A stretch of DNA of 64,000 nt from Alphaproteobacteria bacterium HGW-Alphaproteobacteria-18 (GTDB lineage Bacteria > Pseudomonadota > Alphaproteobacteria > Caulobacterales > Hyphomonadaceae), in NCBI GenBank assembly GCA_002841155.1, contig PHEH01000009.1, positions 183,046-247,045 of the forward strand. The letters are read 5' to 3'. Made by a program: the position numbers and the translations under genes. Positions 44,492-54,501 of this stretch are shown here, one piece after another; the stretch's first letter is position 1, and each line of letters starts with the position of its first letter. Under the pieces are notes generated by a model. The model was not told the origin of the DNA, did not search any database, and saw only the letters and a program-made list of their open reading frames with translations.

Positions 44492-44832
44492 AAAGCTCTC
44501 TTGCCGGTCTGAAACAGATTTCACAAGGGGTGTGACTCGCGTGTGGAATTCGAAATCACACACAGGGATTCACAGGCGACTCACAATTGCAGGATTCTCA
44601 CCTCTGGAGAGTCACGCTGCGTTCTCCTCTGTGATTCCAACACGGACGTTTACACCCTATTAACCATTGACTCATTTCGAATTTGAAATGGCAAAGCGCC
44701 GCGGGCCAATCTGTGACTCGCCTGTGGATTTGACGGGATAAAGCGTTAACAGACGGGTTATCCTCGAATCCCTCGGGGTTATAATCATAAGCGCCCTGAC
44801 GGGCATTTGAGTGAGATTGGGAAGGGGCCAGC
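44492..44832. other. Putative chromosomal origin of replication (oriC)
   Basis: The 341-bp gap between ppsR (DUF299) and hemE holds no gene and is the position of oriC in Caulobacter-type genomes. It has a lower GC content, a candidate unwinding stretch around 44645-44690 (TTTACACCCTATTAACC and CATTTCGAATTTGAAATG), several DnaA-like boxes (TGTGGATTT at 44723, TTATCCTCG at 44759, GGATTCACA at 44566) and nine GANTC sites. A 19-base element TGTGACTCGC(G/C)TGTGGA(A/T) occurs at 44531 and 44712 and, inverted and diverged, at 44567-44585. parS sites and parAB lie about 7-9 kb away. Confidence 0.78.
44780..44785 (+). promoter_or_regulatory. Candidate -10 element of hemE
   Basis: TATAAT, a perfect -10, lies 48 bases upstream of the hemE start. 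No good -35 is at the right distance (GTTATC at 17 bases). In Caulobacter a hemE promoter also lies inside the origin. Confidence 0.35.
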
Positions 44833-50248: not shown

Positions 50249-52113
50249 TGCCGGACTTCCCGGGTTTCGACGTGATTGTCATCGGCGGCGGGCATGCCGG
50301 ATGTGAAGCCGCGGCCGCGTCGGCCCGCTTTGGCGCGCGCACGGCGCTGGTCACACACAAGCTGTCGACGATTGGCGAGATGAGTTGCAACCCTGCCATC
50401 GGCGGGCTCGGCAAAGGCCACCTGGTGCGCGAGATCGATGCCCTCGATGGCCTGATGGGCCGTCTGGCGGACCAGTCTGGTATCCAGTTCCGGATGCTGA
50501 ACCGCTCCAAGGGTCCGGCCGTCTGGGGCCCCCGGTCCCAGATCGATCGGAAGCTTTACCGTGAAGCCATGCAGGCCGAACTGGCGGACTATCCAAATCT
50601 CACCATCATCGAAGACGGCGCCGAAGACCTGATCGTCGAGGACGGCATTCTTCGCGGCGTGATCGGTCTGACGGGCAAACGCTATTCAGCCGCGAAGGTG
50701 GTCATCACGACCGGCACTTTCCTCAAGGGCGAAATCCATATCGGGGCCAAACGCATCCCGGCGGGCCGAATTGGCGAAGCGCCCGCGCTCGGCCTGTCAG
50801 ACCGGCTCTATGCCATCGGCCTGCCGATGGGGCGCCTCAAGACTGGTACGCCTGCCCGCCTCGATGGGCGGACCATCCATTGGGACCGTCTGGAGATGCA
50901 GCCTGCCGATGAGGCGCCGATCCCGTTCTCTTTCCTCAACTCGGAAATCTCGGTGCCGCAGGTCCAGTGCGGCATCACCTGGACCACGCCGGAAACCCAT
51001 TCGATCATCCAGGCCCATATCGGCGAGTCGGCGGTCTATTCCGGCGCCATCTCCGGGCGCGGCCCGCGCTATTGCCCCTCGATCGAGGATAAGGTCCACC
51101 GTTTCGGAGACCGCGACCGCCATCAGGTCTTCCTCGAACCGGAAGGCCTCGACGACCATACCGTCTATCCAAACGGCATCTCGACCTCGCTTCCCGAAGA
51201 GATCCAGGAGAAGTTCATCCGGACGATCCCCGGTCTCGAAGACGCTGTCATTCTCCAACACGCCTATGCGATCGAATATGACTATGTCGATCCGCGTGCG
51301 CTGAGCTCCGCACTGGAAGTCAAACTCATGCCGGGTCTTTATCTGGCCGGACAGATCAACGGGACGACGGGATATGAAGAAGCTGGCGCCCAGGGGCTGA
51401 TGGCCGGCCTGAACGCCGCGCGCGCCGCCGCTGGCAAGGAGCCCATCATCTTTGACCGGGCCGAAGCCTATATCGGTGTCTTGATTGATGACCTCGTGAC
51501 CCGCGGCGTGACCGAGCCGTATCGGATGTTCACCTCGCGCGCCGAATACCGGCTCGTCCTGCGCGCCGACAATGCGGACCAGCGTCTCACACAGCGCGGG
51601 ATCGAAGCCGGAGTCGTCGGTGAAGCACGCGCCGCAATGTTTCACGTGAAACATCGGGCTTTGGAATCCGCCCGGAATCGTCTCAAAACCCTCAATCTCA
51701 GTCCGGCCGCTGCCGTCAAGAATGGATGGACGGTCAATCAGGATGGCCGTGTCCGCTCGGCCTGGGAGTATCTCTCTTACAAAGAGATCAGCTTCGATCA
51801 TCTCGCCCAGGTTTGGCCAGACCTCGCGGAGATTCCAAAAGAGATTGTCGCGCAGATCGAGATTGAAGCCCTCTACTCGGCTTATCTTGATCGCCAGGCC
51901 GATGATGTCGCCGCGCTGCGCCGGGACGAGGCGCTGACGATTCCGCCAGATCTGGATTATGACCTGATCGGCGGCCTTTCTAATGAGGTTCGCCAGAAAC
52001 TGAAATCGGTCAGACCCGGCACGCTCGGTCAGGCCGGGCGGATCGAAGGGGTAACGCCGGGCGCGCTGACGGCGCTACTCGGTCATGTCCGGCGTGTCCG
52101 GAAAGCTGGGTGA
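50248..52113 (+). CDS. mnmG: tRNA uridine modification enzyme MnmG (GidA)
   Basis: FAD partner of MnmE, 621 residues. [65 protein letters not shown] is the diagnostic N-terminus with the FAD loop and redox Cys. [31 protein letters not shown] and [21 protein letters not shown] follow. A parS site (51638-51653) is encoded as MFHVKH inside the C-terminal domain. The start overlaps a CtrA box. Confidence 0.97.
51638..51653. promoter_or_regulatory. parS centromere site 1 (in mnmG)
   Basis: TGTTTCACGTGAAACA, the perfect palindromic parS consensus bound by ParB, lies within mnmG. It is about 1.1 kb upstream of parA and about 6.8 kb from the putative oriC. Confidence 0.95.
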
Positions 52114-52116
52114 GAT

Positions 52117-52740
52117 ATGAGTGAGCGAGACGACCGCGCGGCCTTTCTGGCCGCCAATGATGTTTCACGTGAAACATTGGCGCGAATCGACCGCGTGATC
52201 GCCACGCTCGATGTCTGGCGGCAGAAGAGCAATCTGATAGGCCCGAAAGAATGGCCGCAGATCTGGACCCGGCATGTCGGGGACTCCTGGCAGCTCCTGG
52301 ATCACCTCCCGGAAACGGCGCGCGTGGTCGATCTGGGGTCAGGCGCGGGCTTTCCCGGATTGATCATCGCTGCCGCCCGGCCATCGGGTCACGTGACCAT
52401 GATCGAAAGCGTCGGGAAAAAATGCGCGTTTCTCAACGCCGCGATTCAGGAAGCCGGTCTCAGCGCGTCAGTTTACCAGGGCCGGGTGGAAGCTGCCCCT
52501 CTGATAAAAGCAGAATTCGTCACGGCGCGCGCTTTTGCGCCGCTGCCCGAACTCCTTGATTATGCTGCACCTTGGCTCGGAAAAGGCGCGACCGGCATTT
52601 TTCCAAAGGGCGAACGCTGGAATGAGGAATTGACGGCGGCTAGGCAAAGATGGAATTTCGCTTATGAAGCGATTCCAAGTCGCAGTGGTGGGTCAGGCGT
52701 CATCTTGATTATCAGGGAGGTCGCACGTCGTAATGACTAG
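52117..52740 (+). CDS. rsmG: 16S rRNA (guanine-N7)-methyltransferase RsmG (GidB)
   Basis: Methylates G527 of 16S rRNA with SAM. The 207 residues have the SAM site VVDLGSGAGFPGLIIAAARPSGHVTMIESVGKKCAFLNAAIQEAG. Early in the gene the residues VSRET are encoded by a parS site. The ATG follows the mnmG stop by three bases; the stop overlaps parA by eight. The gene order mnmG-rsmG-parA-parB is highly conserved. Confidence 0.96.
   Translation: MSERDDRAAFLAANDVSRETLARIDRVIATLDVWRQKSNLIGPKEWPQIWTRHVGDSWQLLDHLPETARVVDLGSGAGFPGLIIAAARPSGHVTMIESVGKKCAFLNAAIQEAGLSASVYQGRVEAAPLIKAEFVTARAFAPLPELLDYAAPWLGKGATGIFPKGERWNEELTAARQRWNFAYEAIPSRSGGSGVILIIREVARRND
52161..52176. promoter_or_regulatory. parS centromere site 2 (in rsmG)
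   Basis: A second perfect TGTTTCACGTGAAACA, 523 bases from the first, in the 5' end of rsmG and 557 bases upstream of the parA start. Confidence 0.95.
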
Positions 52741-53539
52741 ACCCAGAATTTTTGCCGTGGTGAATCAAAAGGGCGGGGTCGGAAAGACCACGACCTCGAT
52801 CAATCTCGGAACAGCGCTCGCCGCCGTCGGCCGACGCGTCCTGATCGTCGATTTCGACGCCCAGGGGAACGCCTCGACCGGCCTTGGCATTTCACGTGCC
52901 GAACGTCTGATGACCTCTTATGATCTGGTCGTGGACCGTATCCCGCTGGAGGAGGCTGTGCTCTCCACCATCGTTCCGCGCCTGGATATTGTCCCGGGCG
53001 ATGAAAACCTGTCGGGCGTCGAAACCGAGCTTGCCGGGGATGCCCACCGGTCATACCGGCTGAAGGAAGCCCTCCATTCCTACATCGACCGGGTCGAGCA
53101 GGGCGGACTGGTTAAGTATGACTATGTCCTGATCGATTGCCCGCCCTCACTCTCGGCGCTCACCATGAATGCCATGACGGCGGCCGACGCGCTCCTCGTT
53201 CCGCTTCAGTGCGAGTTCCTGGCGCTTGAAGGGTTGACCCAGCTTCTGCGCACCGTGGAAGTGGTTCGCTCCGGCCTCAACCCGACGCTCGAAATCCAGG
53301 GCGTTGTGCTCACCATGTATGACCGGCGCAACAGCCTGTCAGACCAGGTGGCCAATGAGGTCCGCGCCTTCTTCGGCACCAAGGTCTATAACACGGTCAT
53401 CCCGCGCAATGTCCGCCTGTCGGAGGCCCCGTCCTTCGGCAAGCCCGCGCTCCTCTATGATTATCGCTGCCCGGGCAGTGAGGCATATATCCGTCTCGCC
53501 TCCGAAGTGCTGCAGCGTGAAAAGGCGAGAGCGGCATGA
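52733..53539 (+). CDS. parA: Chromosome-partitioning ATPase ParA
   Basis: Deviant Walker ATPase that moves ParB-parS complexes to the new pole. The 268 residues begin RIFAVVNQKGGVGKTTTSINLGTALAAVG with the signature KGGVGKT, then VLIVDFDAQGNASTGLG, DYVLIDCPPSLSALTMNAM and the DNA-binding Arg/Lys region near the end. The ATG has GGGAGG and overlaps rsmG; parB overlaps its stop as ATGA. Confidence 0.97.
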   Translation: MTRPRIFAVVNQKGGVGKTTTSINLGTALAAVGRRVLIVDFDAQGNASTGLGISRAERLMTSYDLVVDRIPLEEAVLSTIVPRLDIVPGDENLSGVETELAGDAHRSYRLKEALHSYIDRVEQGGLVKYDYVLIDCPPSLSALTMNAMTAADALLVPLQCEFLALEGLTQLLRTVEVVRSGLNPTLEIQGVVLTMYDRRNSLSDQVANEVRAFFGTKVYNTVIPRNVRLSEAPSFGKPALLYDYRCPGSEAYIRLASEVLQREKARAA

Positions 53540-54501
53540 GTGATCCGGCAGAGGACAATCGCGGACGTCCGAGCCGGCTCGGCCGGGGTCTTTCCGCGCT
53601 GATTGGCGAAGTTGAGGCGATGAATGTTCGCCCCGCCGCGCAACCTGTTGCTCAAGGCGAAGCAAGCAGCGCGCCCGGTTCCGTGCCGGGGGGCGGCACG
53701 AATGAGATCGCCATCGACCTGATCCGCCGTAACCCGGCCCAGCCGCGCCGCACCTTCACCGAAGAGAACCTGCGCGAACTGGCCGACTCGCTGAAAGCCA
53801 AAGGCGTGCTCCAGGCAATCCTCGTCCGGCCTGACCCCAAGGAGGCTGGTAAGTATCAGATCATCGCGGGCGAGCGCCGCTGGCGCGCTGCGCGCATGGC
53901 GGGCCTTTCTACCATTCCGGCCATCATCCGGAATGTCGATGAACTTGAGCTCCTCGAGATCGGCATCATCGAAAACGTCCAGCGCTCCGACCTCAATCCG
54001 ATTGAAGAGGCCGAAGCCTATGAGGCGCTGATGAAGCGCTTTGGCCGGACACAGGAAAGCCTAGCTTCCAGTGTCGGTAAAAGCCGGGCCCACATCACCA
54101 ATACACTGCGCCTGCTCCAGCTTCCTGAAAACGCCCGCATCCATGTGCGCGAAGGTCGGATTAGCGCCGGCCATGCCCGCGCCGCGCTCGGCGCGCCCGA
54201 CCCGGAGGCGCTGATCGAGCTTGCCGTGGGGAAGGGCCTCAGCGTCCGCGAAGTCGAGGCGCGTGCCCGAGAGGCGCGTGAAAGTCTGCCTATCGAAACC
54301 AAGTCGATGGACAGCCTCTTGCCCACACCCAAGGACATCAACACCGAAGCTCTTGAAGCTGATATCAGCCGCACTCTCGGTCTCGATGTCGATATCCGTC
54401 ATGGCAAGAATGGCGGCGAGATCCGGATCAAGTATCGCGACCTGGAACAGCTGGACGAGGTCTGCCGCCGCTTGACCGCCAAACGCCGCGCTCCGGAATA
54501 A
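53536..54501 (+). CDS. parB: Chromosome-partitioning protein ParB
   Basis: CTP-dependent clamp that loads at parS. 321 residues: N-terminal ParA-activating peptide (RPSRLGRGLSALIGE), CTP-binding parts LRELADSLKAKGVLQAILVRP and IIAGERRWRAARMAGLSTIPAI (GERRxRA), central helix-turn-helix (LASSVGKSRAHITNTLRLLQLPENAR), then a linker and C-terminal dimer domain (EIRIKYRDLEQLDEVCRRL). Cognate parS sites are 51638 and 52161. Confidence 0.97.
   Translation: MSDPAEDNRGRPSRLGRGLSALIGEVEAMNVRPAAQPVAQGEASSAPGSVPGGGTNEIAIDLIRRNPAQPRRTFTEENLRELADSLKAKGVLQAILVRPDPKEAGKYQIIAGERRWRAARMAGLSTIPAIIRNVDELELLEIGIIENVQRSDLNPIEEAEAYEALMKRFGRTQESLASSVGKSRAHITNTLRLLQLPENARIHVREGRISAGHARAALGAPDPEALIELAVGKGLSVREVEARAREARESLPIETKSMDSLLPTPKDINTEALEADISRTLGLDVDIRHGKNGGEIRIKYRDLEQLDEVCRRLTAKRRAPE

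Follow-up and report, generated by a model that had tools for sequence, protein, structure and literature searches.

GANTC sites fused to DnaA-like cores are conserved in a putative replication origin of one Hyphomonadaceae genus

In the oriC of Escherichia coli, GATC sites lie inside or overlap the weak DnaA sites R5M, tau2, I2 and I3, and DnaA sites are placed 2 bp apart (PMC8488378). The locus described here, judged by its sequence, resembles this origin as described in that source in having a dense adenine-methylation palindrome, methylation sites in or overlapping weak boxes beside stronger ones and a 2-bp spacing of DnaA sites. It differs in that the palindrome is GANTC, the target of CcrM, which acts late in the cell cycle, instead of GATC and Dam, in that SeqA is missing, and in that the methylation site is part of one uniform fused 8-mer, TGTGANTC, conserved over a genus. 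SeqA (PF03925) was not found in the genome, the E. coli control being positive. The parallel with GATC and SeqA of E. coli drawn in the first-pass annotation would, by sequence, extend to methylation sites in putative weak initiator boxes and fails for SeqA, so that another protein, or none, would be the reader. In chromosome 2 of Vibrio cholerae, GATC is contained in the 12-mer and 11-mer iterons of RctB, and binding is methylation-dependent (PMC6090056). There too the methylation site is embedded in initiator boxes, but the proteins are RctB and Dam and the methylation dependence is demonstrated, whereas for the DnaA-like boxes of our locus it is proposed.

Among alphaproteobacteria, the Caulobacter crescentus origin (Cori), beside hemE, holds GANTC sites. 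CcrM is described as unnecessary for its initiation control, deletion of ccrM having left the DNA-content profile and initiation normal, and CcrM overexpression as adding chromosome copies (PMC3973325); the deletion result argues against an easy transfer of methylation control from models. Unlike our locus, Cori has no TGTGANTC fusion reported in the literature covered, which does not extend to the comparative study of Caulobacter origins. The Agrobacterium ori2 and repABC origins are likewise GANTC-rich and CcrM level alters ori2 firing, but the initiator there is RepC, and the effects of CcrM on the DnaA-dependent ori1 are given as not significant (PMC11514494, PMC6090056). No description of a fused DnaA/GANTC box was found in the literature searched, with key Caulobacter origin papers outside its coverage, and a text search for the motif strings had neither TGTGANTC nor GANTCACA among the matches listed. 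The earlier statement that no composite DnaA/CcrM box is described must therefore be narrowed: the GANTC/CcrM form without SeqA appears to be new, whereas weak initiator boxes that contain a methylation site have precedents with GATC, in E. coli and in Vibrio.

The fused sites lie between the divergent genes ppsR and hemE of the window, as we call the whole stretch of 64,000 nucleotides analyzed (Table 1). Forty-one congeners have hemE; L002 (G042, whose contig starts in the origin) and L010 (at a contig end) were left out, and the remaining 39 gaps were aligned. All 39 show the same hemE/ppsR arrangement. Two copies of TGTTTCACGTGAAACA, at 51638 and 52161, which we take to be parS from the parS consensus, lie together with parAB about 7-10 kb to the right of the gap. 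A CtrA-like site in the gap departs by one mismatch from TTAA-N7-TTAA, whose exact form is present in the gap of 31 of the 39 congeners, and its last TTAA is constant in all of them. This layout of ppsR-hemE, parS and parAB is the one published for the origin region of Hyphomonas neptunium, where the marker-frequency maximum is close to hemE and parAB is located some 7 kb from hemE, with two parS upstream (PMC6650430). In the same species CtrA was bound adjoining the origin (PMC7200025). Judged by this layout and by the named relatives Henriciella (L031) and Hirschia (L032), the source genus is probably Hyphomonas, which makes H. neptunium a probable congener. In view of the position between hemE and ppsR, the nearby parS and parAB, the conserved CtrA-like site and the marker frequency published for H. 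neptunium, the gap can very probably be taken as the origin of the chromosome, and its first designation as a putative oriC very probably right.

GC skew supports this assignment weakly, because its local sign in the window is opposite to that expected around an origin and because the search for the H. neptunium origin by GC skew, dnaA position and DnaA sites is described as giving no clear result (PMC6650430). Sampling of the complete congener G046, with hemE at 0.695 Mb, showed negative skew in three of the five stretches ahead of this gene and a value near zero at 0.72 Mb, after which the seven stretches sampled between 0.90 and 1.98 Mb were all positive. For G042, with a contig that begins within the gap, 9 of the 12 stretches sampled up to 2.1 Mb had positive skew. 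The well-conserved element TATAATCATAAGCGCCCTGACGGGC could belong to the promoter or leader of hemE, or be part of the opening region.

Table 1. Features of the ppsR-hemE gap and its surroundings (positions of the window; counts refer to the 39 aligned congener gaps)
Feature	Position	Strand	Remarks
ppsR (Kinase-PPPase)	start about 44491	-	left of gap
Putative oriC gap between divergent ppsR and hemE	44492..44832	.	341 bp
DnaA-like core 1, TTTCACAAG	44519..44527	-	CACAAG invariant in 39 genomes; without GANTC
Fused box 1, TGTGACTC	44531..44538	+	TGTG 39/39, GANTC 33/39, middle base C or G
DnaA-like box TGTGGAATT	44542..44550	+	11 bp after fused box 1; TGTG and position-6 A 39/39
Fused box 2, GATTCACA	44567..44574	-	GANTCACA 39/39; middle base T14 G9 A9 C7
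Fused box 3, GACTCACA	44578..44585	-	11 bp from box 2; CACA 39/39, GANTC only 15/39
GATTC without TGTG	44593..44597	.	GANTC 28/39
GANTC column without TGTG	44599		kept 33/39, lost in window
GAGTC without TGTG	44609..44613	.	GANTC 28/39
Fused box 4, TGTGATTC	44630..44637	+	GANTC 38/39; middle base C24 T10 G4
CtrA-like site TTTA-N7-TTAA	44649..44663	.	
GACTC without TGTG	44669..44673	.	GANTC at column 15/39
Fused box 5, TGTGACTC	44712..44719	+	GANTC 37/39
DnaA-like box TGTGGATTT	44723..44731	+	11 bp after fused box 5; TGTGGA 39/39
GAATC without TGTG	44766..44770	.	GANTC at column 9/39
Well-conserved TATAATCATAAGCGCCCTGACGGGC adjoining hemE	44780..44804	+	short GCCC/GGGC inverted repeat
hemE	GTG start 44833		right of gap
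Presumed parS, TGTTTCACGTGAAACA	51638..51653	.	second copy at 52161
parAB	52709..54501	+	parA reading frame 52709-53539, parB 53521-54501

The nine GANTC reported for the gap by the first-pass annotation (44534, 44567, 44578, 44593, 44609, 44633, 44669, 44715 and 44766) are all exact, as are the five TGTGANTC/GANTCACA at 44531, 44567, 44578, 44630 and 44712. The site at 44609 (GAGTCACG) is one base off GANTCACA, as had been stated, but it is not the sole near-match, since 44593 (GATTCTCA) is also one base off. In 5,000 first-order Markov sequences with the composition of the gap itself (44498-44832), GANTC occurred on average 2.0 times and reached nine or more in a single sequence; TGTGANTC had a mean of 0.08 and five or more were obtained in none. 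The next densest 240-bp stretch of the window outside the cluster has four GANTC. Of 19,780 segments of 237 bp, taken in 20-bp steps from 20 stretches of 20 kb in this genome (400 kb of its 3.88 Mb), none exceeded four, the exact sliding maximum being five. Two complete congeners (800 kb sampled) gave top values of 8, 6 and 5 per 240 bp, of which the 8 is the G042 origin itself, clipped by the contig start. The GANTC density of the gap is the highest found in everything sampled: it exceeds all 400 kb of this genome and all non-origin stretches of the congeners. Two smaller accumulations were seen, one of six GANTC in 240 bp without TGTGANTC at about 542666 of G046:C1 and one of five at positions 51611-51960 of the window (350 bp), where the first parS site lies.

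Counted over the whole 3.88-Mb genome, TGTGANTC is present 66 times (38 forward, 28 reverse) and the reversed-pattern control 43 and 42 times, so that the motif is exceptional only in its clustering and is not over-represented genome-wide. Five of the 66 copies fall within 189 bp in the gap. Elsewhere, two copies come no closer than 133 bp to each other, and a 2-kb stretch has at most two of them. Of all 16 NN-N-NN palindromes, the gaps of the genus contain GANTC by far most often, with 8.0 per gap, followed by GTNAC with 2.9.

The fused motif is kept across the genus, each of the 39 readable gaps holding three to five TGTGANTC. Together these gaps contain 312 GANTC, 162 of them fused to TGTG; the earlier description of most GANTC as fused is thus correct for only about half, and at three more positions most genomes keep a GANTC that lacks TGTG. 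TGTGA is found 210 times in the 39 gaps and is followed by NTC in 162 cases; the window outside the origin has 49 TGTGA, none of them followed by NTC. Exactly eight TGTG/CACA cores are invariant in the 39 gaps. Six of these form three tandem pairs, 11 bp apart, each of which puts a fused box beside another box. Such a spacing corresponds to two adjacent 9-mers with 2 bp between them, as in the DnaA sites of E. coli oriC (PMC8488378).

The fewest changes per column were counted on a tree of ppsR DNA for the 341 columns of the gap, leaving out 14 of the 355 alignment columns that had fewer than 30 letters, and the column mean was 3.46 changes. The four fused sites that are kept best (44531, 44567, 44630 and 44712) had 0 changes in the 12 TGT/ACA columns and 8 in the 16 columns of GANTC letters; their middle bases, in the same order, changed 5, 5, 5 and 3 times, that is, 18 changes in 4 columns. 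The site at 44567 is the extreme case, as seven of its eight columns never change and the middle base takes all four letters. In a DnaA box of the form TGTGNAWAA, position 5 would be free to vary and position 6 would be kept. In the four best-kept sites position 5 is kept and position 6 is free, as GANTC demands, which is how a methyltransferase palindrome varies. At the fifth fused site, 44578, the middle base is not freer, with 5 changes at G, 2 at A, 3 at N, 5 at T and 0 at C, and 22 of the 24 genomes without GANTC there carry CC before ACA. At 44531, TGTG stays where GANTC is lost. The TGTG core therefore has its own reason to exist, being kept at 44531 without GANTC and alternating at 44578 between GANTC and CC before its CACA, and by the same observations the fused sites sit in the places of DnaA boxes. 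Selection thus seems to act on the DnaA-like core as well as on the methylation palindrome.

Not all of the cluster follows this rule. A free middle base is found at four of the five fused sites, is missing at 44578, 44593 and 44599 and is slight at 44609. The middle bases of 44593 and 44599 changed 1 and 0 times, against sums of 5 and 3 changes for the remaining letters of each site, whereas at 44609 the middle base changed 4 times and the others 3, 2, 0 and 0. These three GANTC, conserved without TGTG, would need another reason. Their close spacing resembles the doublets of other genera (GAATCCGACTC, GACTCGACTC), so that the reason for part of the cluster lies outside DnaA boxes.

The full DnaA 9-mer is TTATNCACA. 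In spite of the eight invariant CACA/TGTG cores, TGTGANTCG is a poor DnaA box that departs from this 9-mer in two or three of nine letters, and TTWTNCACA has no match in either direction in the whole window and one match in the gap of 4 of the 39 congeners. If the fused box is read as CGANTCACA, the adenines predicted to be methylated fall within the DnaA 9-mer, one at position 3 and the other opposite position 5. The genome encodes CcrM (N6_N4_Mtase plus RAMA), GcrA and DnaA. The CcrM match to NF050803 has an E value of 2.6e-183, yet its 608.7 bits stay below the curated cut-off of 830. Since CcrM was found in 99 of 101 genomes of the family (89 of 89 high-quality ones) and in 42 of 44 others, a relation between GANTC enrichment and CcrM presence offered no contrast. 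DnaA residues were compared at 50 loci of the 98 genomes with DnaA. R399 of E. coli DnaA, in domain IV, makes a minor-groove contact, and Lys occupies its place at all 33 loci of the genus (g1) and in genera g2 (1), g3 (6), g6 (1) and g9 (3), while Arg is found in g4 (2), g5 (1), g7 (2) and g10 (1). This Lys was rejected as the cause of the fusion, as it also occurs in genera with few or no fused boxes, and would be at most permissive. Elsewhere in the genome of the window, L214 (1396-1740, minus strand) encodes a protein of 114 residues with a match to the C-terminal DNA-binding domain of DnaA (PF08299) but no ATPase part.

The range of the fusion was followed over 170 loci examined for the ppsR-hemE gap. 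Of the 58 other family genomes with hemE, 9 were left out. The 97 gaps outside the genus, in which at least two genomes are counted twice (L031/L137, L034/L167), hold 435 GANTC against 159 expected (Markov). This enrichment is widespread but uneven, with 10.7 per gap in g10, 4.9 in g3 and 1.7 in g7, and it is partly not origin-specific, since GANTC is enriched in the intergenic regions of most alphaproteobacterial chromosomes (PMC8116508). Fusion to TGTG in these 97 gaps is near chance, with 15 of the 435 GANTC against 11.5 expected. A single g6 genome has two fused sites, one of them in a right-hand module matching 44712. By these counts the fusion is a trait of this genus, plus the two sites of one g6 genome, and not of the family or of alphaproteobacteria. 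No ppsR match was obtained at 34 of the 170 loci, and for 12 of these the 620 bp upstream of hemE were inspected. Six loci of Rhodobacterales type showed neither GANTC nor TGTGGA/TCCACA in that stretch. Three Caulobacteraceae loci had 2, 0 and 1 GANTC and no TGTGGA/TCCACA, and three Devosia/Pelagibacterium loci combined 5, 6 and 5 GANTC, of which one, none and one were fused, with words of the TGTGGA/TCCACA type.

Close doublets or triplets of GANTC (GAATCCGACTCTGAATC, GACTCGACTC, GATTCAGATTC) were observed in the gaps of L034, L143, L134, L150 and L049, and spacings of 5 or 6 are among the frequent ones in g3, g10 and g4. Such arrangements in other genera would suit a protein that reads paired methylation sites. 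Elsewhere in the genus, GANTC is present upstream of ctrA (about -43) at 30 of 30 loci (L292-L321), always as GATTC and followed by ACA, forming GATTCACA, at 20 of them; its middle base is constant, unlike that of most origin sites. A fused site upstream of dnaA was seen only in the genome of the window among the 30 loci examined, its own included.

We give an even chance to a reading in which the gap is a Hyphomonadaceae origin with a DnaA array in which some weak members have been turned into fused DnaA/CcrM boxes, and in which methylation licenses initiation. Each fused box would adjoin, always or in most species, a box without a methylation site. DnaA would bind the plain TGTGGAW boxes in any methylation state, using them as anchors, and would spread cooperatively from these to the fused boxes, which would act as methylation-dependent steps of array growth. 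For this, the m6A of the fused boxes, at position 3 and opposite position 5, would have to change the affinity of DnaA or be read by another protein. Full methylation, restored only on the late-cycle arrival of CcrM, would license the array, and the hemimethylated state right after firing would leave it weaker up to the next pulse of CcrM; this phase would limit initiation to once per cycle without SeqA. The origin would be the first region to become hemimethylated and, as CcrM is expressed late (PMC8116508), would stay so longest. We infer the binding of DnaA to the fused boxes, the methylation of the sites and its effect and direction on initiation, and either methylation state may be the one that favours DnaA. 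A more specific proposal, which we consider less likely than not, is that DnaA itself is the methylation reader: weak boxes would have been rebuilt as TGTGANTC, m6A would set the affinity, and the SeqA-free origin would fire once per CcrM pulse.

Reading by a separate protein is in our opinion unlikely. Such a stand-in for SeqA would recognize hemimethylated or methylated GANTC pairs and block DnaA sterically, DnaA itself ignoring methylation. It would fit the dense and partly paired GANTC without TGTG of the other genera, and E. coli SeqA does block low-affinity DnaA sites (PMC8488378), but the TGTG fusion special to this genus would not be required, the PF03925 search gave no SeqA, and no candidate reader was found among those sought (SeqA, GcrA).

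We also think it rather improbable that the GANTC serve transcription, with methylated origin sites recruiting GcrA and sigma-70 for hemE, ppsR or an origin RNA like ccnA, and with the overlap of the DnaA core making transcription and initiation mutually exclusive. The genome encodes GcrA, which favours promoters whose GANTC is fully or hemi-methylated (PMC8116508), ccnA is located in the Caulobacter origin (PMC8959179), and the ctrA upstream regions of the genus have the GANTC near -43 and the frequent GATTCACA mentioned above. However, the five origin sites are scattered, occur in both orientations and are phased to DnaA-like cores instead of one promoter, and the middle base is free at four of them while it is GATTC at all 30 ctrA loci.

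The departure of the letters from the textbook DnaA box, with no TTWTNCACA in the window, would be explained if TGTGANTC were bound by a different protein that prefers this 8-bp word and has no connection with DnaA. We regard this as very improbable, because TGTG cores persist after loss of GANTC, CC-ACA forms alternate with the core at 44578 and the boxes are phased by 11 bp with TGTGGAW boxes. Chance or composition, which has nothing but the shortness of the motif in its favour, is already refuted by the conservation over 39 species, as well as by the Markov counts, the genome sampling and the invariant cores.

Returning to the fused DnaA/CcrM boxes, their presence may explain why the search for DnaA sites in H. 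neptunium gave no clear origin (PMC6650430). The kept overlap of DnaA-like words and CcrM words suggests that the methyl tag could help to time the start of replication. Whether CcrM controls replication start in alphaproteobacteria is a matter on which the Caulobacter data conflict, as overexpression adds copies and deletion leaves initiation normal (PMC3973325). A genus with GANTC inside its initiator boxes would make this question directly testable.
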